DNA of 11,152 nucleotides, taken from the NCBI GenBank assembly GCA_002746275.1, contig NVWR01000001.1, positions 365,073 through 376,224 on the forward strand, read 5' to 3'. Shown one piece after another: positions 1 to 11,096 of the stretch. Below the pieces are notes generated by a model, which was given only the letters and a program-made list of their open reading frames with translations, had not been told where the DNA came from and did no database searches. Each line of letters begins with the position of its first letter. Position 1 is the stretch's first letter. A program made the position numbers and the translations under genes. Source of the DNA: Rhodobiaceae bacterium. Its GTDB lineage: Bacteria > Pseudomonadota > Alphaproteobacteria > Parvibaculales > Parvibaculaceae.

Positions 1-222
1 ATCCACGGAGACAGCGACAATATTGTATTTGTCTGCGATATAGCGGCGGATCATTGATGAGTAGTGGGCGTCCGTTTCACCACCCATACCGGGAATGATA
101 AAGACCAGGCCGTCTGCGGCTTCTGTCTCCGGTGTCTCAACAAGAAGCGTGACCGGATGGCTACGATCGCTGCCGAGTTCGAAATCCGGCTGACCTGGGA
201 TTTGAAATTGACTAGAGGGCAT
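1..222 (-). CDS. DUF2920-like alpha/beta hydrolase, N-terminal part (runs off window)
   Basis: Partial gene: 74 codons are open from the ATG at 222 to the window edge, so the C-terminal part and the catalytic triad are not visible. The visible part aligns without gaps to the start of the complete hydrolase at 2500-3696, with 41 of 74 residues identical by hand count. It includes the first-strand glycine motif FIIPGMGG (residues 41-48), a likely oxyanion-hole region, and the segment DKYNIVAVSV. The start is supported by GGAG 8 nt upstream and by the alignment of both N-termini. It overlaps the end of the ACP gene by 11 nt, so the two are probably translationally coupled. The family call rests on its full-length paralogue. 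The biochemical activity is unknown; an esterase, thioesterase or acyltransferase acting with the adjacent ligase and ACP is an inference. Confidence 0.8.
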   Translation of the reverse strand, partial: MPSSQFQIPGQPDFELGSDRSHPVTLLVETPETEAADGLVFIIPGMGGETDAHYSSMIRRYIADKYNIVAVSVD

Positions 223-481
223 TCGTTTGCTCCGGTGAGGTTCTGCAATCGTCGACCAGCGAGACGATGTCACCAACACATCCGAGGTCAAAGAGCTTGT
301 TCCCCGGAAACCGGAGGTTGAGGTCTGTTTCAATGCGCAAGATCAGTCGGGCATGTGCGAGAGAGTCCCATCCATCAATATCGTCTGCAGCCGTGGCAAG
401 TTCGATGGCTGCGGGATCGCATGACAGTTCTTCGCCGATGATCGCAGCGACTTCTTGCAAGGTTTTTGTTTTATTGGGCAC
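212..481 (-). CDS. Stand-alone acyl carrier protein
   Basis: An 89-residue acidic, helical protein of the phosphopantetheine-binding ACP family. Ser40 in the motif GWDSLAH (residues 37-43) is the expected 4'-phosphopantetheine attachment site, followed by the hydrophobic helix ARLILRIE. Length matches free ACPs. The start is GTG, with a strong GGAGGA Shine-Dalgarno about 8 nt upstream that lies inside the 3' end of the ligase gene; the two genes overlap by 11 nt. This is not the housekeeping acpP: it lacks a fab neighbourhood and the usual acpP motif DSLDTVE. Its partner is most likely the adenylating enzyme encoded just upstream, which would load an acyl or aminoacyl group on the pantetheine arm. 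The loaded group and the acceptor cannot be read from the sequence. Confidence 0.88.
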   Translation of the reverse strand: MPNKTKTLQEVAAIIGEELSCDPAAIELATAADDIDGWDSLAHARLILRIETDLNLRFPGNKLFDLGCVGDIVSLVDDCRTSPEQTNAL

Positions 482-2174
482 CTGAAATTTCCTCCTCGGA
501 GGCGGTCAATAATTTTTCTCTCGTCGCATGTCGACTAATCTTCCCGCTCGTGCTTTTAATCAACCATTGCGGAGGCATGAGATGGATGACGGATGGCACC
601 AGTGCTGTTTCATCCACCATTGCATCGCGAATGGATTTTTTTATGAGTTTGAGAGCTGCAGCATCGGTCTCACGGGTTTCGGCAAGAATGATCAATGTGT
701 CGCTGCCAATTTCTTCCTTGTAGACGGAAAGCGCCATCACCCGCCCGGGCACAACGCCAGGGATATCTTTCAAAGAAAACTCAAGATCGTGGGCATAATG
801 ATTACGCCCATTTAAAATGAGAAGGTCGTCCATCCGGCCAATGACAAACAGCTCGCCGTTTGTCATGTACCCAAGATCGCCGGAATGATATCGCCCTGCC
901 CGAAAAGCCTCAGCAGTCTTCTCAGGCTGTTGGTCATAACCACGCGCCAGGCTCGGCCCTGTAATACACACTTCCCCTATCCGCCGATCAGGCAGTCTGT
1001 TGCCGTCACTGTCCATTACCAGTACCGAAAACCCGTCGATTGGCTTGCCGCATGAAAGGACATTTGTGGTCGGGCAGTAACTGGGCAATGTGGGCCGCGC
1101 GACAGCTTCTTCGATAAGAGCCCGCGTTTCGATGGTCTCAGTCCGTGGCGTTACAGACAGGTCGCTCTGCGTCACGCCGAATACAGTTTCGGCCATGGCA
1201 TAACAGGTATGCAGCTTCGTCTTTCCGACCCCAAAGCGACCGACCGCTGCCGCAAAAGCGTCCAAGGTCTCCGGGCGGGCTTTTTCCGAGCAATCAATGA
1301 AGGCTCGGACTGAGGAGAGATCCCATTCATCCTCACTGTGGCCCAAACAATTCGTCAAATGTTGAAAGGCAAAATTGGGCTGCCAGATCAGCGTTGCTTT
1401 CGTCTGCTCAATGACATCGAAGAGAATTGTGGGTCGAACGACCCAGTCAAAGGGGCTCATGAGGGTGACAGGAACGCCTGTGAGCACCGGCAGCAAACAG
1501 GAGGTTATCAGCCCCATGTCATGGTAGAGCGGCAACCAGCTGGCGATGCGATCGCTTTCGCTGAGTTGTATGGAGCGCGCATAAGCATCGACCTGATGCA
1601 GCAGGGCTGCATGAGAAATCATAACGCCCTTTTTCGTGCCCGTCGTACCAGAGCTGTGTTGCAGGAAGGCAATGTCTTCTGAGGCGATAGCAACACTGGG
1701 AAGCTGTGTCTCGTCAGGCAATGTCTCAGGCGTGACGGTGCAAATGCCATGATCTGGCGCCACGCTGTCCAGCGTCGATCTGAGCTTCGTGTTTGTGAAT
1801 AGGATTTTCGCATTGACCCGGTTGATGACCTGCATCTGTTCACGCCAGAAATGTGCCGGATGTTGTCGCGGACTTGGTGGCGACATAAGGGTCGGCACGA
1901 TACCGGCCAGCATTGATCCAAAAAACGCATACAACAGATCTGGCCCGTGATCGAAAAGGATGAGCGCGCGGTCCCCCGGTACCAATCCATTTTCCTTGCA
2001 GGCTGCCGCGTAAGGCGCCGCACACAAGGCAAGTTGTTGATAGCTGATGCTGGTGTTCTGCTCGTTGACCTGAACACGGGCATAAAGGCGATTTGGCGTC
2101 TCTTCAATGCGACGCAGGATCCGTGCTGCCGCCGTATCCCTGCCCGATTTCTTCCAAAAAGAGAGTAACGCCAT
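471..2174 (-). CDS. Fatty-acyl-AMP ligase-like adenylating enzyme (ANL superfamily)
   Basis: A 567-residue adenylate-forming enzyme expected to activate a carboxylic acid as acyl-AMP and pass it to a carrier thiol, here most likely the ACP encoded next. Motifs in order: P-loop HSSGTTGTKKG (173-183), WLPLYHDMGLI (213-223), A5-type CYAMAET (324-330), A7 YHSGDLG (429-435), the hinge GRMDDLLILNGRNHY (446-460) and A10 STSGK with catalytic Lys545. The YHDMGLI and GRNHY segments are typical of fatty-acyl-AMP ligases rather than acyl-CoA synthetases. I could not confirm the FAAL-specific insertion by eye, so an amino-acid or other carboxylate substrate stays possible. I chose the ATG at 2174; in-frame upstream starts (ATG at 2210, TTG at 2255) would add residues that look non-conserved. 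The TTG lies in a predicted hairpin loop. Its stop overlaps the ACP start by 11 nt. Confidence 0.87.
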   Translation of the reverse strand: MALLSFWKKSGRDTAAARILRRIEETPNRLYARVQVNEQNTSISYQQLALCAAPYAAACKENGLVPGDRALILFDHGPDLLYAFFGSMLAGIVPTLMSPPSPRQHPAHFWREQMQVINRVNAKILFTNTKLRSTLDSVAPDHGICTVTPETLPDETQLPSVAIASEDIAFLQHSSGTTGTKKGVMISHAALLHQVDAYARSIQLSESDRIASWLPLYHDMGLITSCLLPVLTGVPVTLMSPFDWVVRPTILFDVIEQTKATLIWQPNFAFQHLTNCLGHSEDEWDLSSVRAFIDCSEKARPETLDAFAAAVGRFGVGKTKLHTCYAMAETVFGVTQSDLSVTPRTETIETRALIEEAVARPTLPSYCPTTNVLSCGKPIDGFSVLVMDSDGNRLPDRRIGEVCITGPSLARGYDQQPEKTAEAFRAGRYHSGDLGYMTNGELFVIGRMDDLLILNGRNHYAHDLEFSLKDIPGVVPGRVMALSVYKEEIGSDTLIILAETRETDAAALKLIKKSIRDAMVDETALVPSVIHLMPPQWLIKSTSGKISRHATREKLLTASEEEISGAQ

Positions 2175-2243
2175 GGTGCACCCTGCTGAACGCTGTAAGC
2201 CAACGTTCATTCCAGCCAAACAGGGTAAATTTTGAGTAAACAG

Positions 2244-2262
2244 ACCGGCCAACAAGGCCGAT
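2244..2262 (-). terminator. Possible weak terminator or 5'-UTR hairpin after tRNA-Lys
   Basis: On the minus strand CGGCC, loop TTGTT, GGCCG forms a 5-bp GC stem. One G-U and one A-T pair extend it to 7 bp. It is followed by GTCTGTTTACT, only a poor U-tract. It sits between the tRNA 3' end and the ligase gene, so it could end the tRNA transcript or fold in the ligase leader. No other clear signal was seen between 2175 and 2296. Confidence 0.35.
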
Positions 2263-2296
2263 TAAAACAATGATATTGCTTAAATACGGAGAAAAG

Positions 2297-2372
2297 TGGT
2301 GAGCCCAGCAAGGTTCGAACTTGCGACAACCTGATTAAAAGTCAGGTGCTCTACCAGCTGAGCTATGGGCCC
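2297..2372 (-). tRNA. tRNA-Lys (anticodon UUU)
   Basis: A 76-nt cloverleaf. The acceptor GGGCCCA pairs with TGGGCTC (one G-U pair); discriminator A73 and the 3' CCA are encoded in the DNA. The anticodon stem CCTGA/TCAGG closes the loop CTTTTAA, giving anticodon TTT at 2339-2337. The T arm contains GTTCGAAC. It has its own promoter upstream. Its 3' end faces the ligase-ACP-hydrolase cassette, an arrangement often seen where accessory DNA joins the chromosome, although no direct repeat of the tRNA end was found in the window. Confidence 0.97.
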
Positions 2373-2409
2373 GTCACTATCGCGCGAGAATCCCGCGCTG
2401 GACGGGCGG

Positions 2410-2438
2410 AAACTAGTCACCCTTGGCCAAGCGGTCAA
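2410..2438 (-). promoter_or_regulatory. Sigma-70-type promoter for tRNA-Lys
   Basis: On the minus strand, TTGACC (2438-2433) and TAGTTT (2415-2410) are separated by exactly 17 nt. Transcription would start near 2403, about 30 nt before the mature tRNA 5' end. Position and spacing fit a stable-RNA promoter. It implies the tRNA does not depend on read-through from the gyrA operon. The rest of the gap between the hydrolase stop and the tRNA holds no convincing terminator. Confidence 0.6.
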
Positions 2439-2499
2439 CTGATTTGGGGGCAAATTACCCGGTTTTGAGTGACAAAGTGCCCTGCGGCAGCGTCCTTGC

Positions 2500-3696
2500 T
2501 CACTTTATCGAAATAGAGGCTGAAAGGGACGCCGCTTCATCGCCCGATTTGCCCCGATGTTCCACCCGGTAACTCTTATGGATACCCTCGAATTCAAGAC
2601 TGGTTTCTGCTTCCCGGTCGGTGATTCCTGGCTGTAAGGAGAGTGTTGGATAGTACCGGTCAAAGAGCTTGTTGAGGCCAATCCCCAATCCGTGCTCCAG
2701 GGTCGTCACAAAATCGCCATCAACGTCACCCTCCCCCATTTCGTCCAGAACAACGTCATACCCAAACCGGGATAGGATCTTTGCCTGGCGACGTTTAAGC
2801 GCAATATCAACCAAACTGTCCTTAGTGGAATGAACGAGGCGAAACTGGCAGCGCCGCGCTTGTGTGTTTACAGCAAGTGTCTGGAGATGACCGGGATGCG
2901 CAACGTCGCGGATCAAGGCCTCATCAGTTCCAAAATAATTCGCTGCACCGACTTCTCTATTTGTCCACGCTGTTCGTGTGGTGCAGAGGTAATCAAGGTT
3001 CCCGTCTGGCTGGGTATATTCAAAGTCACCGAACCCAAGAAATTTTGGCATGGTCTCGGAATACCCCGAGGAGTCAATAACAGCGGAAATATTGTTGGGT
3101 GCAAATTTGTGGATGAGGTGAGAGATATAGCCGCCGTGGGACGTCCCCAGACACACAACATTGTCATGGGCAAAAGAAACATCCTGATCCATCAGATGAT
3201 AAAGCACCCTTAGATGGTCTAGAGCTGCCAACACGCCGAAATTCTGATAGTCGCTGCAAGGCGGTAGAATAGTCGCCTTGAGTTCAAACCGTTGAGGCCG
3301 AAGGGTCTTCAGATATGCGAGGACAGCATCAGGACTAAGTGCTGTGAGCCCCTCAAAAGTGGATCCCTGAAGTAAAAGGGATCCGAGAGCGAGAGTAACC
3401 GCTTCGGGGTCGATATTTAATGCCGCCTTCAACCCATCGACAGCTGGGCCCAGCCGACAGATATGACAATGGGCCCGAACAGAGACCGCCACGAGATTAT
3501 ATTTGGCGGCGATATGCCGCCGCACCATTGTTGAGAATACCTCGTCTCTGTCACCCCCAAAACCGGGGATCAGAAACACCAACCCATCGGCCGGACCATC
3601 CTCCGGGATTTCAGCCGTGAACGTGACCGGCACGGTGCGCGGGATTTTGAGCTCAAAATCTTCCTGCCCCTCGATACGCCCCGACATCGTCGCCAT
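2500..3696 (-). CDS. DUF2920-like alpha/beta hydrolase (complete)
   Basis: A 398-residue predicted soluble alpha/beta hydrolase that I recognise as like the DUF2920 (Campylobacter '617') family. Shared-looking segments are KYNLVAVSV (65-73), the PPCSDYQNFG block (145-154) and AVIDSSGY (205-212). A catalytic triad can be proposed: Ser186 in the nucleophile elbow GTSHGG, Asp293 in HSTKD and His335 in LEHG. LIPGFGG (42-48) is a likely oxyanion region. The frame is open to an ATG at 3777 that overlaps the tgt stop by one base. I chose the ATG at 3696 because it has GGAG and TGGA upstream and aligns exactly with the start of the paralogue at 222; the upstream ATG lacks a ribosome-binding site. It follows tgt in the gyrA operon but does not belong to that pathway. 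Substrate unknown; acyl transfer or hydrolysis linked to the nearby ACP module is an inference. Confidence 0.82.
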   Translation of the reverse strand: MATMSGRIEGQEDFELKIPRTVPVTFTAEIPEDGPADGLVFLIPGFGGDRDEVFSTMVRRHIAAKYNLVAVSVRAHCHICRLGPAVDGLKAALNIDPEAVTLALGSLLLQGSTFEGLTALSPDAVLAYLKTLRPQRFELKATILPPCSDYQNFGVLAALDHLRVLYHLMDQDVSFAHDNVVCLGTSHGGYISHLIHKFAPNNISAVIDSSGYSETMPKFLGFGDFEYTQPDGNLDYLCTTRTAWTNREVGAANYFGTDEALIRDVAHPGHLQTLAVNTQARRCQFRLVHSTKDSLVDIALKRRQAKILSRFGYDVVLDEMGEGDVDGDFVTTLEHGLGIGLNKLFDRYYPTLSLQPGITDREAETSLEFEGIHKSYRVEHRGKSGDEAASLSASISIK

Positions 3697-3776
3697 TGTT
3701 TTCCAAGCTCCAGCTTCGTGAATAAGCCGATTGGGACGCAACATGGTTAAAAATGTTTGAAGATTGGAGGACCTCA

Positions 3777-4916
3777 TCACAGAGGTGGTAGATCACCCGC
3801 CAACTGCTCGGCTTTAAACTGCTCAACAAAAGCAGCGAAGGTGCCCTCTCCTATGGCAGTCCGCATTCCCGCCATCAGTGTCTGGTAATAGGAAATATTG
3901 CTCCAGGAGAGCAGCATCATGCCCAGAATTTCTCCGTTCTTGAGGAGATGGTGCAGGTAGGCCCGTGAATAGTCCCGTGCGGCGGGACACGAACTGGTCT
4001 CATCCAGAGGTCGCGGATCGGCCGCATGCCGGGCGTTCTTCAGATTGATCTTACCAAAGCGCGTAAACGCCTGCCCGTGCCGCCCGGACCTTGTGGGCAT
4101 CACACAGTCAAACATGTCTATACCGCGCCTCACGGCCTCCACAAGGTCGTCTGGTGTGCCAACCCCCATCAGATAGCGAGGGCGCTCTCGTGGCAGCATA
4201 GGAACGGTGAAATCGAGGACCTTGAGCATCTCCGCCTGGCCCTCTCCCACCGCGAGCCCACCGACCGCATATCCATCAAAACCTATCTCGATCAAAGCAT
4301 CTGCGCTGGTACGACGAAGGTCTTCGTAAGTACTGCCCTGAACAATTCCAAAAAGAGCCTGCCCGTCTTTTCGGTGGGGCTGAGAGAGAAAGGCATCTTG
4401 GGAGCGTTTTGCCCACCGGGACGAAAGCTGCATGGAGGACGCGGCTTCCTCGTGGGTCGCAGGAAACGGTGTGCACTCATCCAGCACCATCTGAATGTCC
4501 GCCCCGAGCAGACATTGAATTTCAATACTGCGTTCTGGTGACAAAGAGTGGGAGGAGCCATCAATATGGCTCTGAAAGGTAACTCCCTCCTCGTTCATTT
4601 TGCGCAGTTTGGAAAGCGACATCACCTGAAAGCCACCGCTGTCGGTGAGGATGGGGCCTTGCCAGTTCATGAAGGAATGAAGCCCTCCAAGAGCTGCCAT
4701 CTCCTCCGCCCCTGGTCGCAACATCAAATGATAGGTATTGCCAAGAACAATGTCGGCACCGGCGTCACGTACCTGATCCGTGTAGAGCGCCTTCACCGTG
4801 CCTGATGTGCCCACGGGCATGAAGGCAGGCGTTTGGATGTCGCCCCGGGGGGTATGGATAACACCGCGCCGTGCAGCCCCGTCTTCCGCCTGCAGGTCGT
4901 AACTGAATGAACTCAC
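3777..4916 (-). CDS. tgt: tRNA-guanine transglycosylase (queuosine biosynthesis)
   Basis: Tgt exchanges guanine 34 of GUN-anticodon tRNAs for preQ1 in the cytoplasm, the step before QueA. The 379-residue protein has normal family length. Visible are [12 protein letters not shown] with the general acid/base Asp92, the substrate loop GGLAVGE (219-225), [11 protein letters not shown] with nucleophile Asp270, and SRAYLHHL (317-324). The zinc site is degenerate: the usual CxCxxC reads S308-S-C310-P-A-A313, and the distal His is Ser339. Three of four ligands are therefore absent, although the fold and active site look intact. I recall similar losses in rhizobial Tgt proteins. The GTG start overlaps the queA stop by 4 nt (GTGA), indicating coupled translation. 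Confidence 0.95.
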
Positions 4917-6000: not shown

Positions 6001-6474
6001 TTACTCAGCGTCAGCGGCGACCTGCATCTTGATGATCTTGTCGGGGTCCACTGGGGGCTCACCGCGCTTAAGCGCATCAACATGTTCCATGCCGTCGATG
6101 ACCTGACCCCAAAACGTATATTGGTTGTCGAGAAAACGGGCATCGCCAAAACAGATGAAGAACTGACTATCTGCACTGTTTGGATCCTGTGAGCGTGCCA
6201 TCGAGCAGGACCCTCGCACATGCGGCTCCGCTGAGAACTCAGCATCGATGTTCTTGCCAGAACCACTTGTGCCCGTTCCCGTTGGATCACCACCCTGTGC
6301 CATGAAACCCTCAATGACCCGGTGAAAAACGATCCCGTCGTAAAATCCTTCGCGGGCAAGTTCTTTAATCCGCGCCGCATGCTTGGGCGCAAGATCAGGA
6401 CGGAGTTCAATTGTGACCCGACCGTTTGCAAGGTCGAGGAAGAGTGCGTTTTCGGGATCTTTGATATCAGCCAT
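6001..6474 (-). CDS. Cytoplasmic cyclophilin-type peptidyl-prolyl isomerase
   Basis: Catalyses cis-trans isomerisation of Xaa-Pro bonds in protein folding. The 157-residue single cyclophilin domain shows FHRVI with catalytic Arg52, [12 protein letters not shown] (57-68), SQFFI (103-107) and [10 protein letters not shown] (114-123). Phe114 sits where human cyclophilin A has Trp121, as is usual in bacterial, poorly cyclosporin-sensitive members. It lacks a signal peptide, so it is probably cytoplasmic (PpiB-like). I chose the ATG at 6474 over a TTG at 6492 because the protein then starts [11 protein letters not shown], just ahead of the conserved domain; the GAGG about 12 nt upstream is rather distant. 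It is a tandem homologue of the neighbour at 6498-7037, with a 23-nt gap. Confidence 0.93.
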
Positions 6475-6497
6475 AGCTAACTTATTCCTCAAGTGAT

Positions 6498-7037
6498 TTA
6501 TTCGGTGACGTCAGAGGCAACTTGCATCCGGACCATTGTGTCTGGGTTCACCGGTGGCTCACCCAGTGTGATATTGTCGACAAATTCCATGCCTTCCACG
6601 ACACGGCCCCAGACGGTGTATTGGCCATCGAGAAAGTTGGAATCATCTAACACGATAAAAAATTGGCTGTTGGCGCTGTCCGGGTGGCGCGAGCGAGCGG
6701 CCCCGATAACACCGCGCTGGAAAGGCACGCTGGAAAATTCCTGGCGGATGTCGGGATAATCCGATCCGCCGGCACCCGTGCCGGTTGGGTCCCCGGTCTG
6801 CGCCATGAAACCATCAATGACACGATGGAACACAATGCCATCGTAAAATTTCTCACGGGTCAGTGTCTTGATCCGCGCCACATGCCGAGGGGCAATGTCT
6901 GGCAGCAATTCAATCACCACACGACCGTCTTTCAGGTCCAGATATAGGGTGTTTTCAGGATCACCAGCGCTCGCCGGCGTAAGCGCCAGGATTATGGTGA
7001 AACACAAGGCAAAGGCAGCAGCGGCTAGTCGATACAT
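6498..7037 (-). CDS. Exported cyclophilin-type peptidyl-prolyl isomerase
   Basis: A 179-residue cyclophilin with an N-terminal signal peptide: Arg3, a hydrophobic run through residue 20, and PASA ending at residue 24 as a likely signal peptidase I site. It should therefore act in the periplasm (PpiA-like). The mature domain keeps FHRVI with Arg72, FMAQTGDPTGTG (77-88), SQFFI (124-128) and FLDGQYTVWG (135-144). Its ATG has AGGAG 6 nt upstream, which rules against the TTG one codon earlier. It forms a tandem pair with the cytoplasmic copy, so this operon supplies both compartments. The gap from coaD is 30 nt. Confidence 0.94.
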   Translation of the reverse strand: MYRLAAAAFALCFTIILALTPASAGDPENTLYLDLKDGRVVIELLPDIAPRHVARIKTLTREKFYDGIVFHRVIDGFMAQTGDPTGTGAGGSDYPDIRQEFSSVPFQRGVIGAARSRHPDSANSQFFIVLDDSNFLDGQYTVWGRVVEGMEFVDNITLGEPPVNPDTMVRMQVASDVTE

Positions 7038-7067
7038 CAATAACTCCTGAGATACAGAACCGGTTGA

Positions 7068-7568
7068 TTAGGCGTCTTTTACCCGAGCAAGGACCATCTC
7101 GGCTACCCGTGCTGGGACGAACTGCGAAATATCTCCACCCATTGTGGCAATTTGACGAACAAGTGTGGACGAAATAAAGCCAACATTAGGTGTCGCAGAC
7201 AGAAAAACGGTCTCAACATTCGGATTCATGGCGGTATTCATGCCCACCATCTGGGTTTCATATTCATAATCGACAGCTCCCCGGAGCCCCCGAATGATAA
7301 TTCCAGCACCTGCCGCATCAGCCGCATCAACCACCAACCCAGAGAAGGATTGAACTTCCAGGGTCGACCCCACCTCCTTTGCCAGAGGCTTCATTTCAGC
7401 TTCAATCAGCTCTGCACGCTCCTCGAAGCTGAGCATTGGTTTTTTTGACGAGTTAATGCCAATGCCAATGACCAGATGATCGACCAGACGAAAGGCCCGA
7501 CGCATAATATCGGTATGCCCATAGGTAACGGGGTCGAAGGTGCCTGGATAAAGCCCTATACGTTTCAT
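7068..7568 (-). CDS. coaD: Phosphopantetheine adenylyltransferase
   Basis: CoaD makes dephospho-CoA from 4'-phosphopantetheine and ATP, the penultimate step of CoA synthesis. The 166-residue protein has normal length and the nucleotidyltransferase motifs [12 protein letters not shown] (7-18, His18 in the TxGH site), the RGLRG loop (93-97), DYEYE (100-104) and ISSTLVR (132-138). The ATG overlaps the gyrA stop as ATGA (4 nt), so it is co-transcribed and coupled with gyrA. CoA is also the donor of the phosphopantetheine arm needed by the ACP at 212-481, but this adjacency is probably incidental because gyrA-coaD is a conserved alphaproteobacterial order. Confidence 0.97.
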
Positions 7569-10414
7569 GACGGTTCGGATCCCTCACCGCTGGAGCTGGC
7601 GTCCTCTCCGTCTTCCTCATCTGAGCTTTCCCCCAAATGTTCCACAGAAACGACTTTCTCGTCAGGCCCTGTGCGGAAAACGGTGACACCTTGTGTCGAG
7701 CGGCCTGCAACCCGGATGCCATCAACAGGACACCGGATCAACTGACCTCCATCGGTTACCAGCATGATTTCATCGTCATTCGCAACCGGGAAAGAGGCAA
7801 CCAGCGGACCGTTGCGAGCCGAGACAGACATGGCGATAATGCCCTTGCCGCCGCGGCCAGAGGTCCGGTACTCAAACGACGAACTGCGTTTGCCATAGCC
7901 CTTCTCGCTGACGGTCAGAACAAACTGCTCGTGAGCGCCAAGTTCAGCATATCTCTCTTGCGAGAGGGAGGTAATTTCCCCTTCATCGCCACTCTCCGCA
8001 GGCTCATCAGCCTGCTCCACACTCTCCTCGTGCTCTTCACCTGTAAGAGCCCGACGAGCGATCGCAGCCTGCTTGAGGTAGGCACGAGATTCTGGTGGCG
8101 TTACCTCCAGATGACGCAGGATGGTCATCGAAATCGTCCGGTCGCCTTTGCCGAGCCTTACGCCACGCACGCCGGTTGAATTGCGGCTGGAGAAAACCCG
8201 GACGTCGGTGACGGGGAAGCGAATGCATCGCCCGCCCTCATTGGTCAACAAAACGTCGTCATTCTCGGTACAGATTTGAACGCCGACAATGCCGTCGCCC
8301 TCGTCCAGCTTCATCGCGATTTTGCCGTTTCGATTAATCTGAACAAAATCGGAAAGCTTATTGCGACGCACGCTACCTGAGCGGGTTGCGAACATAATAT
8401 CCAGAGCATCCCAACTTTTCTCGTCCTCTGGCAGCGGCATGATTGTCGTGATCCGCTCATCGGTCTTGAGCGGCAACAGATTGACCAGTGCTTTGCCACG
8501 GGACTGCGGTGTTGCCTGAGGCAGGCGCCATACTTTCATCTTGTAGGCCATGCCTGTTGATGAGAAGAACAGCATTGGCGAATGGGTGCTCGCGACAAAA
8601 ATCCGCGCGACGAAATCTTCGTCCTTCGTCGCCATGCCCGAACGGCCTTTGCCACCGCGCTTCTGTGCCCGATAGGTCGAAAGCGGTACGCGCTTGATGT
8701 AACCCTGATGGCTAACGGTAACGACCATGTCTTCGCGCTGGATGAGGTCTTCATCTTCCATGTCATCCACAGCGTCGCCAAGGGCGGTGCGACGTGGCGT
8801 CGCAAACTCGTCACGAACATTGCCGAGTTCCTCTCGGAGGATGCTCAAGATGCGGGCGCGTGATCGCAGGATGTCGAGATAGTCGGAAATCCTTCCACCC
8901 AGCACTTTAACTTCGTCGCCGATTTCATCGCGACCAAGAGCTGTCAGGCGTTGCAGGCGAAGCTCAAGAATAGCCCGCGCCTGCGTTTCGGAAAGACGGT
9001 ATGTGCCGTCCTCCGCAATCTTGTGACGAGGGTCATCGATCAGCTGAATAATGGGCGCAATGTCCATCGCTGGCCAATGGCGTTCCATCAATTGCGCTCT
9101 CGCGGTCGCAGGGTCCGGGGCGCTTCGGATCAGTGCAATCACTTCATCAATATTGGCAACCGCAATCGCCAACCCGACCAACACGTGCGCACGGTCCCGC
9201 GCCTTCTTCAGCTCAAATTTGGTGCGCCTGGCAACAACCAGCTCTCTGAAATCAAGAAACGCCGCAAGCATCTGCTTGAGGTTCATCTGCTGTGGACGCC
9301 CATAATCCAGAGCCACCATGTTGGCACTGAAAGGCGTTTGAAGCTGAGAGAACCGGTAGAGCTGGTTCAAAATTACATCAGGCACCGCGTCACGCTTCAG
9401 TTCCACAACGACCCGCATGCCGAGCCGCGAACTTTCATCCCGAATATCCGAGATGCCCTCAATGCGTTTGTCGCGCACGAGTTCCGCGATCTTCTCAATC
9501 ATCGTCGCCTTGTTCACCTGATAGGGAATTTCGGTAATGATGATCGCCATGCGGTCTTTCCGCACTTCTTCAATCTCGGTAACGCCCCGCATCATAATCG
9601 AGCCGCGTCCCAGATGGTATGTCGAGCGAATGCCCTGGCGCCCCAGAATGATCCCGCCGGTGGGGAAATCAGGCCCAGGAACAATGTCGATCAGTCGATC
9701 AATGCCAATGTCAGGGTCATCCATGATGGCGAAGCAGGCATCAATCGTCTCACCCAGATTGTGCGGGGGAATATTGGTCGCCATGCCAACGGCAATGCCG
9801 CCCGCCCCGTTCACCAGCAGGTTTGGAAACTCAGCCGGAAGGACTTCAGGTTCACTCTCTGAATTATCGTAATTGTCTTTGAAATCGACCGTGTCTTTGT
9901 CGATGTCCGTGAGCAGGCCGTGCGCAGACTTGCCCATGCGCACTTCGGTGTAACGCATGGCAGCCGGTGGATCACCGTCCACAGAGCCAAAGTTACCCTG
10001 GCCATCCAGCAAGGGAAGTCGAAGCGAAAAGTCCTGCGCCATCCGCACCAACGCATCATAGATCGCCTTGTCGCCATGAGGGTGATACTTACCCATGACG
10101 TCACCGACAATACGCGCCGACTTGCGATACGGTTTATTCCAGTCATAGCCACTCTCATGCATCGCATAGAGGATGCGGCGGTGAACAGGTTTCAACCCAT
10201 CACGCACGTCTGGTAGCGCTCGACTGACGATGACGCTCATTGCGTAATCGAGATAGGAACGCTTCATCTCTTCTTCGATGGAGATCGGGGTTACATTTGG
10301 CTCCGGAGGCAATCCACCAGCGCTGACGGCATCGCCGCCGTCGCCATTTGAATTCCCATTTCCCCCAGCACCCGTGGGTTCCCCAGAGGTATCCGTATCA
10401 TTCGTATCGGACAA
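7565..10414 (-). CDS. gyrA: DNA gyrase subunit A
   Basis: GyrA is the cleavage-religation subunit that, with GyrB, supercoils DNA. With the chosen TTG start it has 949 residues. A Gly/Asn/Ser-rich leader (about 1-42) precedes the core [18 protein letters not shown]. Tyr155 in AAMRYTEV is the DNA-cleaving tyrosine. The gyrase box QKRGGKG (584-590) sets it apart from ParC, and the beta-pinwheel C-terminal domain ends in an acidic tail. An acidic insertion of about 55 residues (772-826) lies in the C-terminal domain. Lys116 occupies the E. coli Ser83 position; Asp120 matches Asp87. The start is uncertain: TTG at 10414 gives MSDTNDTD with AAGG 8 nt upstream, while a TTG at 10489 would add 25 residues that look non-coding. 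It heads the operon. Confidence 0.95.
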
Positions 10415-10493
10415 AATTCGAACCTTCAAAGAAGCTGTCTGCGGACAACGCGACCGCTTCGATTGATTGAAAAATAGGGGCTTCGGCAACCAT
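10398..10493 (-). other. Possible upstream ORF overlapping the gyrA start
   Basis: An ATG preceded by GGGGA (5-nt spacing) opens a 31-codon frame beginning [16 protein letters not shown]. It ends at a TGA 12 nt inside the gyrA coding region, counted from the proposed TTG. The frame differs from gyrA. It has a better start codon than any gyrA candidate, and the geometry would suit translational coupling. Short length and lack of known homologues keep this tentative. Confidence 0.3.
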
Positions 10494-10622
10494 CCGAATC
10501 CCCTGATTTATAAGCAGCAAGCTTATCATTCAGCTGTCAGATACGCAACCAAGACGCGGACCAAGGCGGCCTCCTAACCCGTTGAAATAAAATAACTAAA
10601 TGCGATATCCCAAGTCAGCTCG
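10490..10622 (-). promoter_or_regulatory. gyrA leader region with inverted repeat
   Basis: This non-coding stretch lies between the DUF2269 stop and gyrA. A perfect dyad, ATAAGC-AGCAA-GCTTAT, occupies 10510-10526. Candidate -35/-10 pairs can be drawn on the minus strand, such as TTGCGT, 17 nt, TAAGCT, but none is close to consensus, so I do not place the promoter. A TTG with AGGAGG 5 nt upstream (10564) opens a 12-codon frame that ends in TGA directly at the dyad. The dyad could be an operator or an attenuator stem. No clear terminator for the upstream genes was found. Confidence 0.3.
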
Positions 10623-11096
10623 TCAAGCAAAGCTAGGCTTGGAAACCATCAGCCAGAAAATGACCAGAATGGCGCCGAAAGCAGGCCATCCAAACCAGAA
10701 CCAGATGCGCATAAAACGATGGTATCGATTCGGCAAAGGCGCATCTAACGACGCTGCGATCTCGGCCATTTTGCGCATTTCGTTCTGCAACCAGACCACA
10801 GGTAACCAAAACGCCCCGATAGCCACGTAGAGCACCAGTGACAGAATAATCCACCCTTCGCACAACGACCTGCCTGTTAATATCACAAGCCCAACCCCCG
10901 TCGCTGGCTGCACAAGGACCGCTGTTGCAGTAAAAAGAAAATCAGCGATAACAACGGTTCTGGCCGTTGCTGCGATCACCCGAGCATCGCCTGTTCGATC
11001 TGCAACAAACATAAAAAAGGCAATCCCAAGACCGGTCCCGAACAACACTGCAGCGCTCAGGATATGGATGAATTCCATAACGAAATAGAGATCCAT
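10623..11096 (-). CDS. DUF2269-type integral membrane protein
   Basis: A 157-residue protein that resembles the DUF2269 family of predicted inner-membrane proteins, whose function is unknown. Four hydrophobic segments are visible: about 5-32, 46-72, 81-103 and 131-152. The N-terminal EFIHILSAAVLFGTGLG segment with His11 is the part that suggests the family. A polar, charged stretch (104-128) separates the third and fourth segments. The ATG has a strong AGGAGG 7 nt upstream. Its start overlaps the stop of the previous gene by one base (TAATG), so the two are co-translated. It is separated from gyrA by about 200 bases and is probably a different transcription unit. Confidence 0.75.
   Translation of the reverse strand: MDLYFVMEFIHILSAAVLFGTGLGIAFFMFVADRTGDARVIAATARTVVIADFLFTATAVLVQPATGVGLVILTGRSLCEGWIILSLVLYVAIGAFWLPVVWLQNEMRKMAEIAASLDAPLPNRYHRFMRIWFWFGWPAFGAILVIFWLMVSKPSFA

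Follow-up and report, generated by a model that had tools for sequence, protein, structure and literature searches.

Several DUF2920 (Cj0617) genes of Campylobacter have phase-variable tracts and lie in the flagellin-glycosylation locus, their function being left open (PMC7099621, PMC3068675, PMC13130089). In C. jejuni, the DUF2920 genes Cj1305 and Cj1306 switch on or off together with Cj1295 between flagellin-mobility variants, of which only Cj1295 was then tested, and acylated pseudaminic acids, N-acetylglutamine-substituted or carrying di-O-methylglyceroyl groups, occur in this species (PMC3068675). In a survey from 2026, cj1305 and cj1306 correlate with pse genes and are described as putative transferases (PMC13130089). 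A second described system is daptomycin DptE/DptF, in which a free fatty acyl-AMP ligase (FAAL) and a free acyl carrier protein (ACP) form an established loading pair (PMC9113097). Here we analyse a stretch of 11,152 nucleotides (the window; contig NVWR01000001.1, G000:C1:365073-376224; L, G and P labels denote loci, genomes and proteins) within the 3.45 Mb genome of a Rhodobiaceae bacterium, whose closest named relatives are Rhodobiaceae bacterium, Parvibaculaceae bacterium and 'Alpha proteobacterium Mf 1.05b.01' records. The window holds a cassette for two DUF2920 proteins, a FAAL-type ligase and an ACP, which we read, with a probability of roughly 45%, as an ACP-dependent acyl-transfer module acting on a nonulosonic-acid (NulO) or flagellin glycan.

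An initial annotation of this DNA had described a ligase, an ACP with Ser40 and a DUF2920 hydrolase as one overlapping cassette running in a single direction. Pfam matches, overlaps and the gene order of relatives bear this out, and the cassette is slightly larger than described, with a second DUF2920 gene (2500-3696) upstream of the ligase. The predicted minus-strand order is tgt, DUF2920-A, FAAL-type ligase, ACP and DUF2920-B, the cassette genes being:

2500..3696, minus strand: DUF2920-A, an alpha/beta hydrolase and the first cassette gene (PF11144; AlphaFold model).
471..2174, minus strand: FAAL-type acyl-AMP ligase (PF00501, insertion, motifs, orthologues).
212..481, minus strand: free-standing ACP with Ser40 (PF00550; orthologues in L022, L023, L024, L025 and L071).
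1..222, minus strand: start of DUF2920-B, which runs past the window to C1:364138 (PF11144 on both pieces).

Start codons were judged from relatives (ATG at 2174 for the ligase, GTG at 481 for the ACP, ATG at 222 for DUF2920-B), and with those starts the ligase and ACP overlap by 11 bases, as do the ACP and DUF2920-B. Both overlaps are 4 bases in L022, and in L024 the ligase and ACP overlap by 4 bases. The ligase-ACP-DUF2920-B order cannot be put down to chance since it is kept in five relatives (L022, L023, L024, L025 and L071). A coincidental meeting of unrelated housekeeping-like genes could be argued from the confinement of the cassette to one genus and one site and from two genomes with a single DUF2920 match, G390 and G009, the latter having DUF2920-B, ACP and ligase. 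Yet the genes overlap, their order is conserved across genus members, and the ligase orthologues of six other members are 64-66% identical to that of the window, which leaves coincidence very improbable.

The ligase matches the Pfam AMP-binding family (PF00501) with 200.6 bits. Its best NCBIfam models are fatty acyl-AMP ligases that all scored below their cut-offs (the top model, PRK09192, gave 330.2 bits against 600), so we call the enzyme FAAL-type, with no named subfamily there. Chains named fatty-acyl-adenylate ligase, FadD32, FadD23 and FadD28 are among its best matches by sequence in the PDB, and the structures 7r7e/f/g and 3kxw align with it over nearly the full chain. The motifs SWLPLYHDMGLI and GRNHY are both present. 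An insertion after the AET motif is the hallmark of FAALs; in an alignment of eight ligases, about 30 extra residues follow the 'YAMAET' motif in the window ligase and its five cassette orthologues, and this insertion is largely missing from the Phenylobacterium and C. aviculae ligases. Judged by its AMP-binding domain and post-AET insertion, the predicted enzyme carries this hallmark. Four of the seven ligase matches in the family report one internal stop, which in G143 (L022) precedes the start used for the open reading frame (ORF), and the frames are complete from the chosen start in L022, L023 and L025.

The ACP was matched by the PP-binding family (PF00550) at 25.8 bits against a cut-off of 20.8, and the serine of its DGWDSL motif is residue 40; the ligase very probably loads this protein. 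For the hydrolases, PF11144 (cut-off 24.7) gave 199.4 bits for DUF2920-A (2500-3780), 38.2 bits for the in-window part of DUF2920-B (1-333) and 133.2 bits for its remainder, so that the DUF2920 assignment of the initial annotation holds. AlphaFold models of DUF2920-A (pLDDT 90.5) and of P0032, a relative of DUF2920-B (pLDDT 91.2), predict an alpha/beta-hydrolase fold with Ser, Asp and His at the canonical places, namely Ser213-Asp320-His362 (P0001 numbering) and Ser187-Asp293-His335, respectively. Among 97 aligned DUF2920 sequences, not all of them independent, the serine is conserved in 95, the aspartate in 97 and the histidine in 94. Five of the 97 rows have no readable triad: P0046 (Q for H), P0051 (G for S), L064_9511 (C for S), L024_12780 (X) and L027_7581 (a gap, the row ending at 450 residues). 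P0046, a DUF2920 protein with an end that matches LPG_synthase_TM, may be chimeric or misassembled. DUF2920-A is an old genus-specific paralogue. The window genome's own DUF2920-B copy contains 104 N in 1334 bases and may or may not be intact; relatives hold complete reading frames.

Thirteen FAAL relatives were fetched from other genomes of the class as the best of the matches in 56 genomes outside the genus, where the best class-sample ligases are at most 39% identical. In five of them the same ORF also encodes an acyltransferase domain, of the Hexapep type in L107 and L108 and of the PlsC type (PF01553) in L114, L115 and L117, and none was found by Pfam in the other eight. These five single-chain proteins resemble the cassette in their FAAL part (33-39% identical) and, in four of the five, in a Pfam PP-binding carrier domain; they differ in being fused and in bearing a Hexapep or PlsC-type acyltransferase, not a DUF2920 protein. 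By analogy, DUF2920-B would fill the acyltransferase slot of these relatives. As separate observations, L107:517-3195 and L108:1405-4020 are FAAL proteins with a terminal Hexapep acyltransferase, with a Pfam carrier domain in L108, and the L108 FAAL adjoins a gene with a phmmer match to the sugar amidotransferase PseA/PtmG and none in Pfam.

In the mechanism that we propose, the FAAL-type ligase would use ATP to convert a carboxylic acid, fatty or hydroxy-fatty rather than an amino acid, into an acyl-AMP, and would pass the acyl group to the phosphopantetheine arm of the free ACP. DUF2920-B would then take the acyl group on its catalytic serine and hand it to an acceptor, for which a hydroxyl or amino group on a legionaminic-type NulO, free, CMP-bound or attached to flagellin, is the likeliest candidate; DUF2920-A would perform a second acyl step, either at a second position or in removing an acyl ester. 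The odds that DUF2920 transfers an acyl group are about even, and a NulO or flagellin acceptor is, in our estimate, as probable as not. Acylation of a NulO or flagellin glycan from acyl-ACP is the best reading because a FAAL-ACP loading pair, an acyltransferase slot, Maf fusions and NulO neighbourhoods all point to it.

The closest folds of the DUF2920 models are acylaminoacyl peptidases, DPP-like enzymes and cinnamoyl esterases, and fold scores fail to separate peptidase, esterase and acyltransferase. A PDB sequence search with DUF2920 returned nothing significant, and NCBIfam gave no family match for the DUF2920 proteins at E 0.001. Both DUF2920 proteins might be hydrolases, one an editing thioesterase that clears the ACP and/or one an esterase that strips acyl groups off a glycan; the canonical Ser-Asp-His and the top fold matches fit this, and two paralogues permit one of each activity. 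However, if both were hydrolytic the cassette would be left with no acyltransferase; among the 13 FAAL relatives, five have such a domain within a single ORF with the FAAL, and fusion of DUF2920 with Maf in a single ORF points to action on the glycan itself. We regard an all-hydrolytic pair as unlikely.

The distribution of DUF2920 was surveyed by phmmer with fixed thresholds in one genome per species, which gave 48 loci; several flanks end at contig ends, and records near the window genome may be omitted. By record title, 30 loci belong to Campylobacterota and 18 to others (alpha-, beta- and gammaproteobacteria, Desulfurivibrio and Phycisphaeraceae), four of the 18 being members of the window's genus. 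These 18 loci contradict a published description of the family as Campylobacter-specific (PMC11878206). The flanks contain a NulO gene at 13 of the 48 loci, a flagellin gene at 13, and Maf or a Maf fusion at 10; at least one of these was found at 20 loci. By phmmer, DUF2920 and Maf are joined in a single ORF at four Campylobacterota loci (L042:7992-11216, L036:8067-11273, L038:101-3340 and L034:7953-9749), and Pfam confirms both parts in L034 and L042, the two loci scanned, and in P0048, possibly the same protein as the L034 fusion. Together with the presence of both gene groups in the window genome, these results uphold the suggested link of DUF2920 with NulO and flagellin. As to co-occurrence of DUF2920 with a ligase-ACP pair, the check suggested in the initial annotation, ligase and ACP lie within the flanks of DUF2920 at four of 48 loci, all in the window's genus. 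Separately, a DUF2920 gene of Campylobacter sp. TTU_617 that is broken into two frames (L065:7980-9228) lies between a fabG-like gene and ACP, ketoacyl synthase and accA-like genes, an apparent fatty-acid operon.

The window genome encodes NeuB, NeuC and a LegC-family aminotransferase, all three over their NCBIfam cut-offs. Beside neuB are a nucleotidyltransferase gene, a cytidylyltransferase-like gene (PseF model, below cut-off) and a dehydratase/epimerase gene; the nucleotidyltransferase we take to be PtmE-like, and the cytidylyltransferase presumably resembles a CMP-NulO synthetase. The predicted gene set looks like a legionaminic-type one. It lies at C1:908-914.5 kb, about 26 kb from the flagellin genes at C1:879-882 kb (three matches), which by sequence places NulO and flagellin genes close together in this genome. 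NeuB was found in all seven genus members, and its co-occurrence with the cassette gave a hypergeometric value of 0.019, which assumes independence. A 614-aa TPR protein adjoins the flagellins, and the PDB matches listed for it lie mostly within its TPR part. Caulobacter FlmG is a 596-aa protein with TPR and GT-B domains in a species without Maf (PMC7591256); the two proteins are alike in length and TPR half only, and we label the window genome's protein FlmG-like. A TPR protein 29.5% identical to it adjoins DUF2920 in the Sterolibacterium NulO locus L027, and TPR repeats can inflate such a match.

Several observations weigh against an acyl transfer to NulO or flagellin. Roughly 510 kb separate the cassette (C1:364-369 kb) from the flagellins and roughly 540 kb separate it from the NulO genes; the term legionaminic rests on the LegC match and the PtmE-like label, because the genome's own models are named for sialic acid (NeuB, NeuC). 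The association with NeuB is weak, because NeuB also occurs in 17 of 33 family genomes that do not carry the cassette and all seven carriers are of one genus. Maf (PF01973) was found in none of ten family genomes, the window genome included. Among the 48 loci, 28, the four cassette loci included, lack NulO, flagellin and Maf genes in the flanking DNA, which is short at some of them. In L024 the ACP and DUF2920-B genes are separated by a 13-base gap. The resemblance of the fold to S9 peptidases and esterases makes hydrolysis as compatible as transfer, and the papers found in the open-access literature yielded no biochemical activity for any DUF2920 protein. Finally, a cj1305c mutant of strain 81-176 is cited as remaining motile and showing the same glycan charge (PMC11980577), which, as far as that citation goes, argues against an essential or charge-changing role.

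The arrangement that the initial annotation gave for Campylobacter is found in C. aviculae L149, where ligase (7286-8797), ACP (8807-9034; 21.4 bits against 20.8) and DUF2920 (9108-10322) follow each other, and a similar order occurs in C. jejuni 414 L148, which holds DUF2920, a ligase piece, an ACP-like ORF, another gene, DUF2920 and a CMP-NulO-synthetase-like gene; this stretch is rich in N, and its ACP-like ORF had no Pfam match at 1e-3. A search for ACPs in 16 DUF2920 genomes gave sub-cut-off matches adjoining DUF2920 in two, C. aviculae and C. estrildidarum. In the Campylobacter Cj1305c-Cj1310c region, represented by L149 and L148, as in the window, DUF2920 stands immediately beside an adenylating ligase and then a free ACP. 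The two modules differ in that the C. aviculae ligase is a DltA-like amino-acid-adenylation enzyme (TIGR01733, 321.5 bits, cut-off 317.4) without the FAAL insertion, whereas the window ligase is FAAL-type and scored 156.9 bits with that model; in that the C. jejuni set lies among NulO genes, whereas the window cassette is at a separate site; and in that no Maf (PF01973) was found in the window genome. The claim of the same three-part set is therefore right for parts, roles and adjacency and fails for ligase family and location. A DUF2920-ligase-ACP arrangement of this kind is already known from Campylobacter, where it is uncharacterised, and the FAAL-bearing version is new. The papers listed in searches of the open-access literature contained no report of a FAAL-ACP-DUF2920 set, no title or abstract on a FAAL arranged with flagellin or lipopolysaccharide acylation, and no mention of Cj1308, and one of them named Cj1307, as a PCR primer site.

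For shared parts with different ligase subfamilies, the simplest reading of the sequences would be a single DUF2920 role fed by different donors. DUF2920 might then be a family of acyl-ACP:NulO acyltransferases with exchangeable donors, aminoacyl-type in Campylobacter through an amino-acid-adenylating ligase and ACP, and fatty or hydroxy-fatty in the marine genus through FAAL and ACP, a generalization that we consider doubtful. If the acylation reading is true, the flagellum of this marine genus would bear sialic-acid-like sugars with acyl chains. A stand-alone, overlapping ligase-ACP-DUF2920 cassette with assayable loading, together with Maf fusions elsewhere, gives the uncharacterised DUF2920 a testable acyl-transfer hypothesis.

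Other known systems share some of these parts. The Dlt system (DltA, DltC) uses an adenylating enzyme and a carrier protein to esterify a surface glycan; the cassette has the same two kinds of protein, but the window ligase scored 102.6 bits with the DltA model TIGR01734 (cut-off 559.85). The exosortase-A-associated set comprises the ligase TIGR03098, two alpha/beta hydrolases and an ACP near sugar genes. The cassette is alike in this composition and surroundings and differs in that the window ligase gave 105.8 bits with TIGR03098 (cut-off 592.35) and its DUF2920 proteins, as stated above, have no NCBIfam match. With the starter module DptE/DptF the cassette would share acyl-AMP formation and loading of a free ACP (PMC9113097), but it has no recognised nonribosomal peptide synthetase (NRPS) condensation gene, and the partner that takes the acyl group would be DUF2920. 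From this likeness one could propose that the cassette makes a free small molecule or lipid unrelated to flagella, with a FAAL-ACP starter unit and release by a thioesterase: FAAL-ACP pairs start lipopeptides, some such clusters place acyl-CoA dehydrogenases between the FAAL and ACP genes (PMC9113097), and L024 has an acyl-CoA dehydrogenase gene just upstream of the ligase. However, no NRPS, polyketide synthase or condensation gene was recognised by eye in the window or 16 kb downstream, family models having been run on part of the ORFs, and none of the mapped DUF2920 loci, in which not every gene is annotated, was recognised as such a cluster. We hold such a product to be improbable.

Of 385 genomes sampled from the class, 5 have DUF2920 above its cut-off, G073 barely so (25.7 bits). 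Weaker matches in further alphaproteobacteria (of 16 genomes with a match, 11 were below cut-off) were mostly short stretches around the nucleophile and were set aside as general alpha/beta hydrolases. DUF2920 is present in 7 of 40 family genomes, all of one genus, and the ligase (E <= 1e-100) in the same seven; in G388 the order is the same, as judged from where tgt, the ligase and the two DUF2920 genes lie. The DUF2920-like gene of G277 forms a long branch, and its 5.6 kb contig gave no phmmer match to the ligase or the ACP of the window. The cassette site, between tgt and a SPOR gene, is one site in one genus only, and tblastn at E 1e-6 gave no match to DUF2920-A, DUF2920-B, ligase or ACP in the 13 kb after tgt in four genomes of three other family genera. 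As far as these sequences tell, the cassette has thus been acquired in one genus or lost outside it. Because the orthologous set is confined to one genus and one site and the surrounding genes are cassette-free in other genera, the proposed portability is not supported; by the initial annotation's own refuting criterion, a lack of recurrence beyond close relatives, the orthologous set fails, and the role-for-role set, which recurs in Campylobacter, does not.

Just beyond position 1, where the initial annotation advised looking for them, there are no NulO or flagellin genes: the genes there encode a SPOR protein, an APS-kinase/CysN-like protein, GalE, a PglF-like protein, GlmU and GlmS, and the same genes lie downstream in relatives. 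In G419, which has no cassette, tgt, SPOR, CysN/APS-kinase-like, GalE, PglF-like, GlmU and GlmS genes keep the window genome's order, and genes for a carbonic anhydrase and a PAPS reductase are additional. A CysN-like, GalE, GlmU and GlmS group is about 7 kb from tgt in cassette-free G404, CysN-like and GalE genes are about 9 kb from it in cassette-free G393, and tblastn detected none of these sugar-metabolism neighbours within 13 kb of tgt in G386. Since cassette-free G419 keeps all of them near tgt, and G393 and G404 a part, their position is an inherited one, and they were dropped as a clue to the role of the cassette. They would matter if the same loading chemistry served a surface polysaccharide or lipopolysaccharide sugar made from precursors of the neighbouring GlmS, GlmU, GalE, PglF-like and APS-kinase genes, an alternative that would suit their place directly downstream of the cassette in the window genome and its relatives and the PseA/PtmG-similar neighbour of the FAAL-ACP-Hexapep protein of L108 (phmmer; no Pfam match). 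Besides the cassette-free occurrence of these neighbours, the frequent company of NulO and flagellin genes that DUF2920 keeps elsewhere speaks against such an acceptor, which we think rather unlikely. The APS-kinase protein of L004:13511-15211 and its relatives (cluster c9) has a CysN-like front half by NCBIfam, with no Pfam match, and stands beside GalE in several family genera.

Two further features complete this part of the window:

2175..2499, minus strand: gap of 325 bases between DUF2920-A and the ligase, without a long gene (comparison with relatives).
3777..4916, minus strand: tgt, conserved upstream neighbour outside the cassette, which it adjoins in relatives; cassette-free in G419, G386, G393 and G404.

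The counterpart of the gap is a YHYH-motif protein (labelled by eye) in L022, L023 and L071, partial in L025, and in L024 it is the acyl-CoA dehydrogenase gene (9521-10723), between DUF2920-A and the ligase. The ORF of DUF2920-A spans 2500-3780 with a probable ATG at 3696, judged from P0002; because this likely start is about 80 bases past the tgt stop, an overlap of DUF2920-A with tgt is not clear. Elsewhere in the window, two adjacent tandem genes for cyclophilin-like peptidyl-prolyl isomerases were recognised by eye at 6001-7040 on the minus strand.

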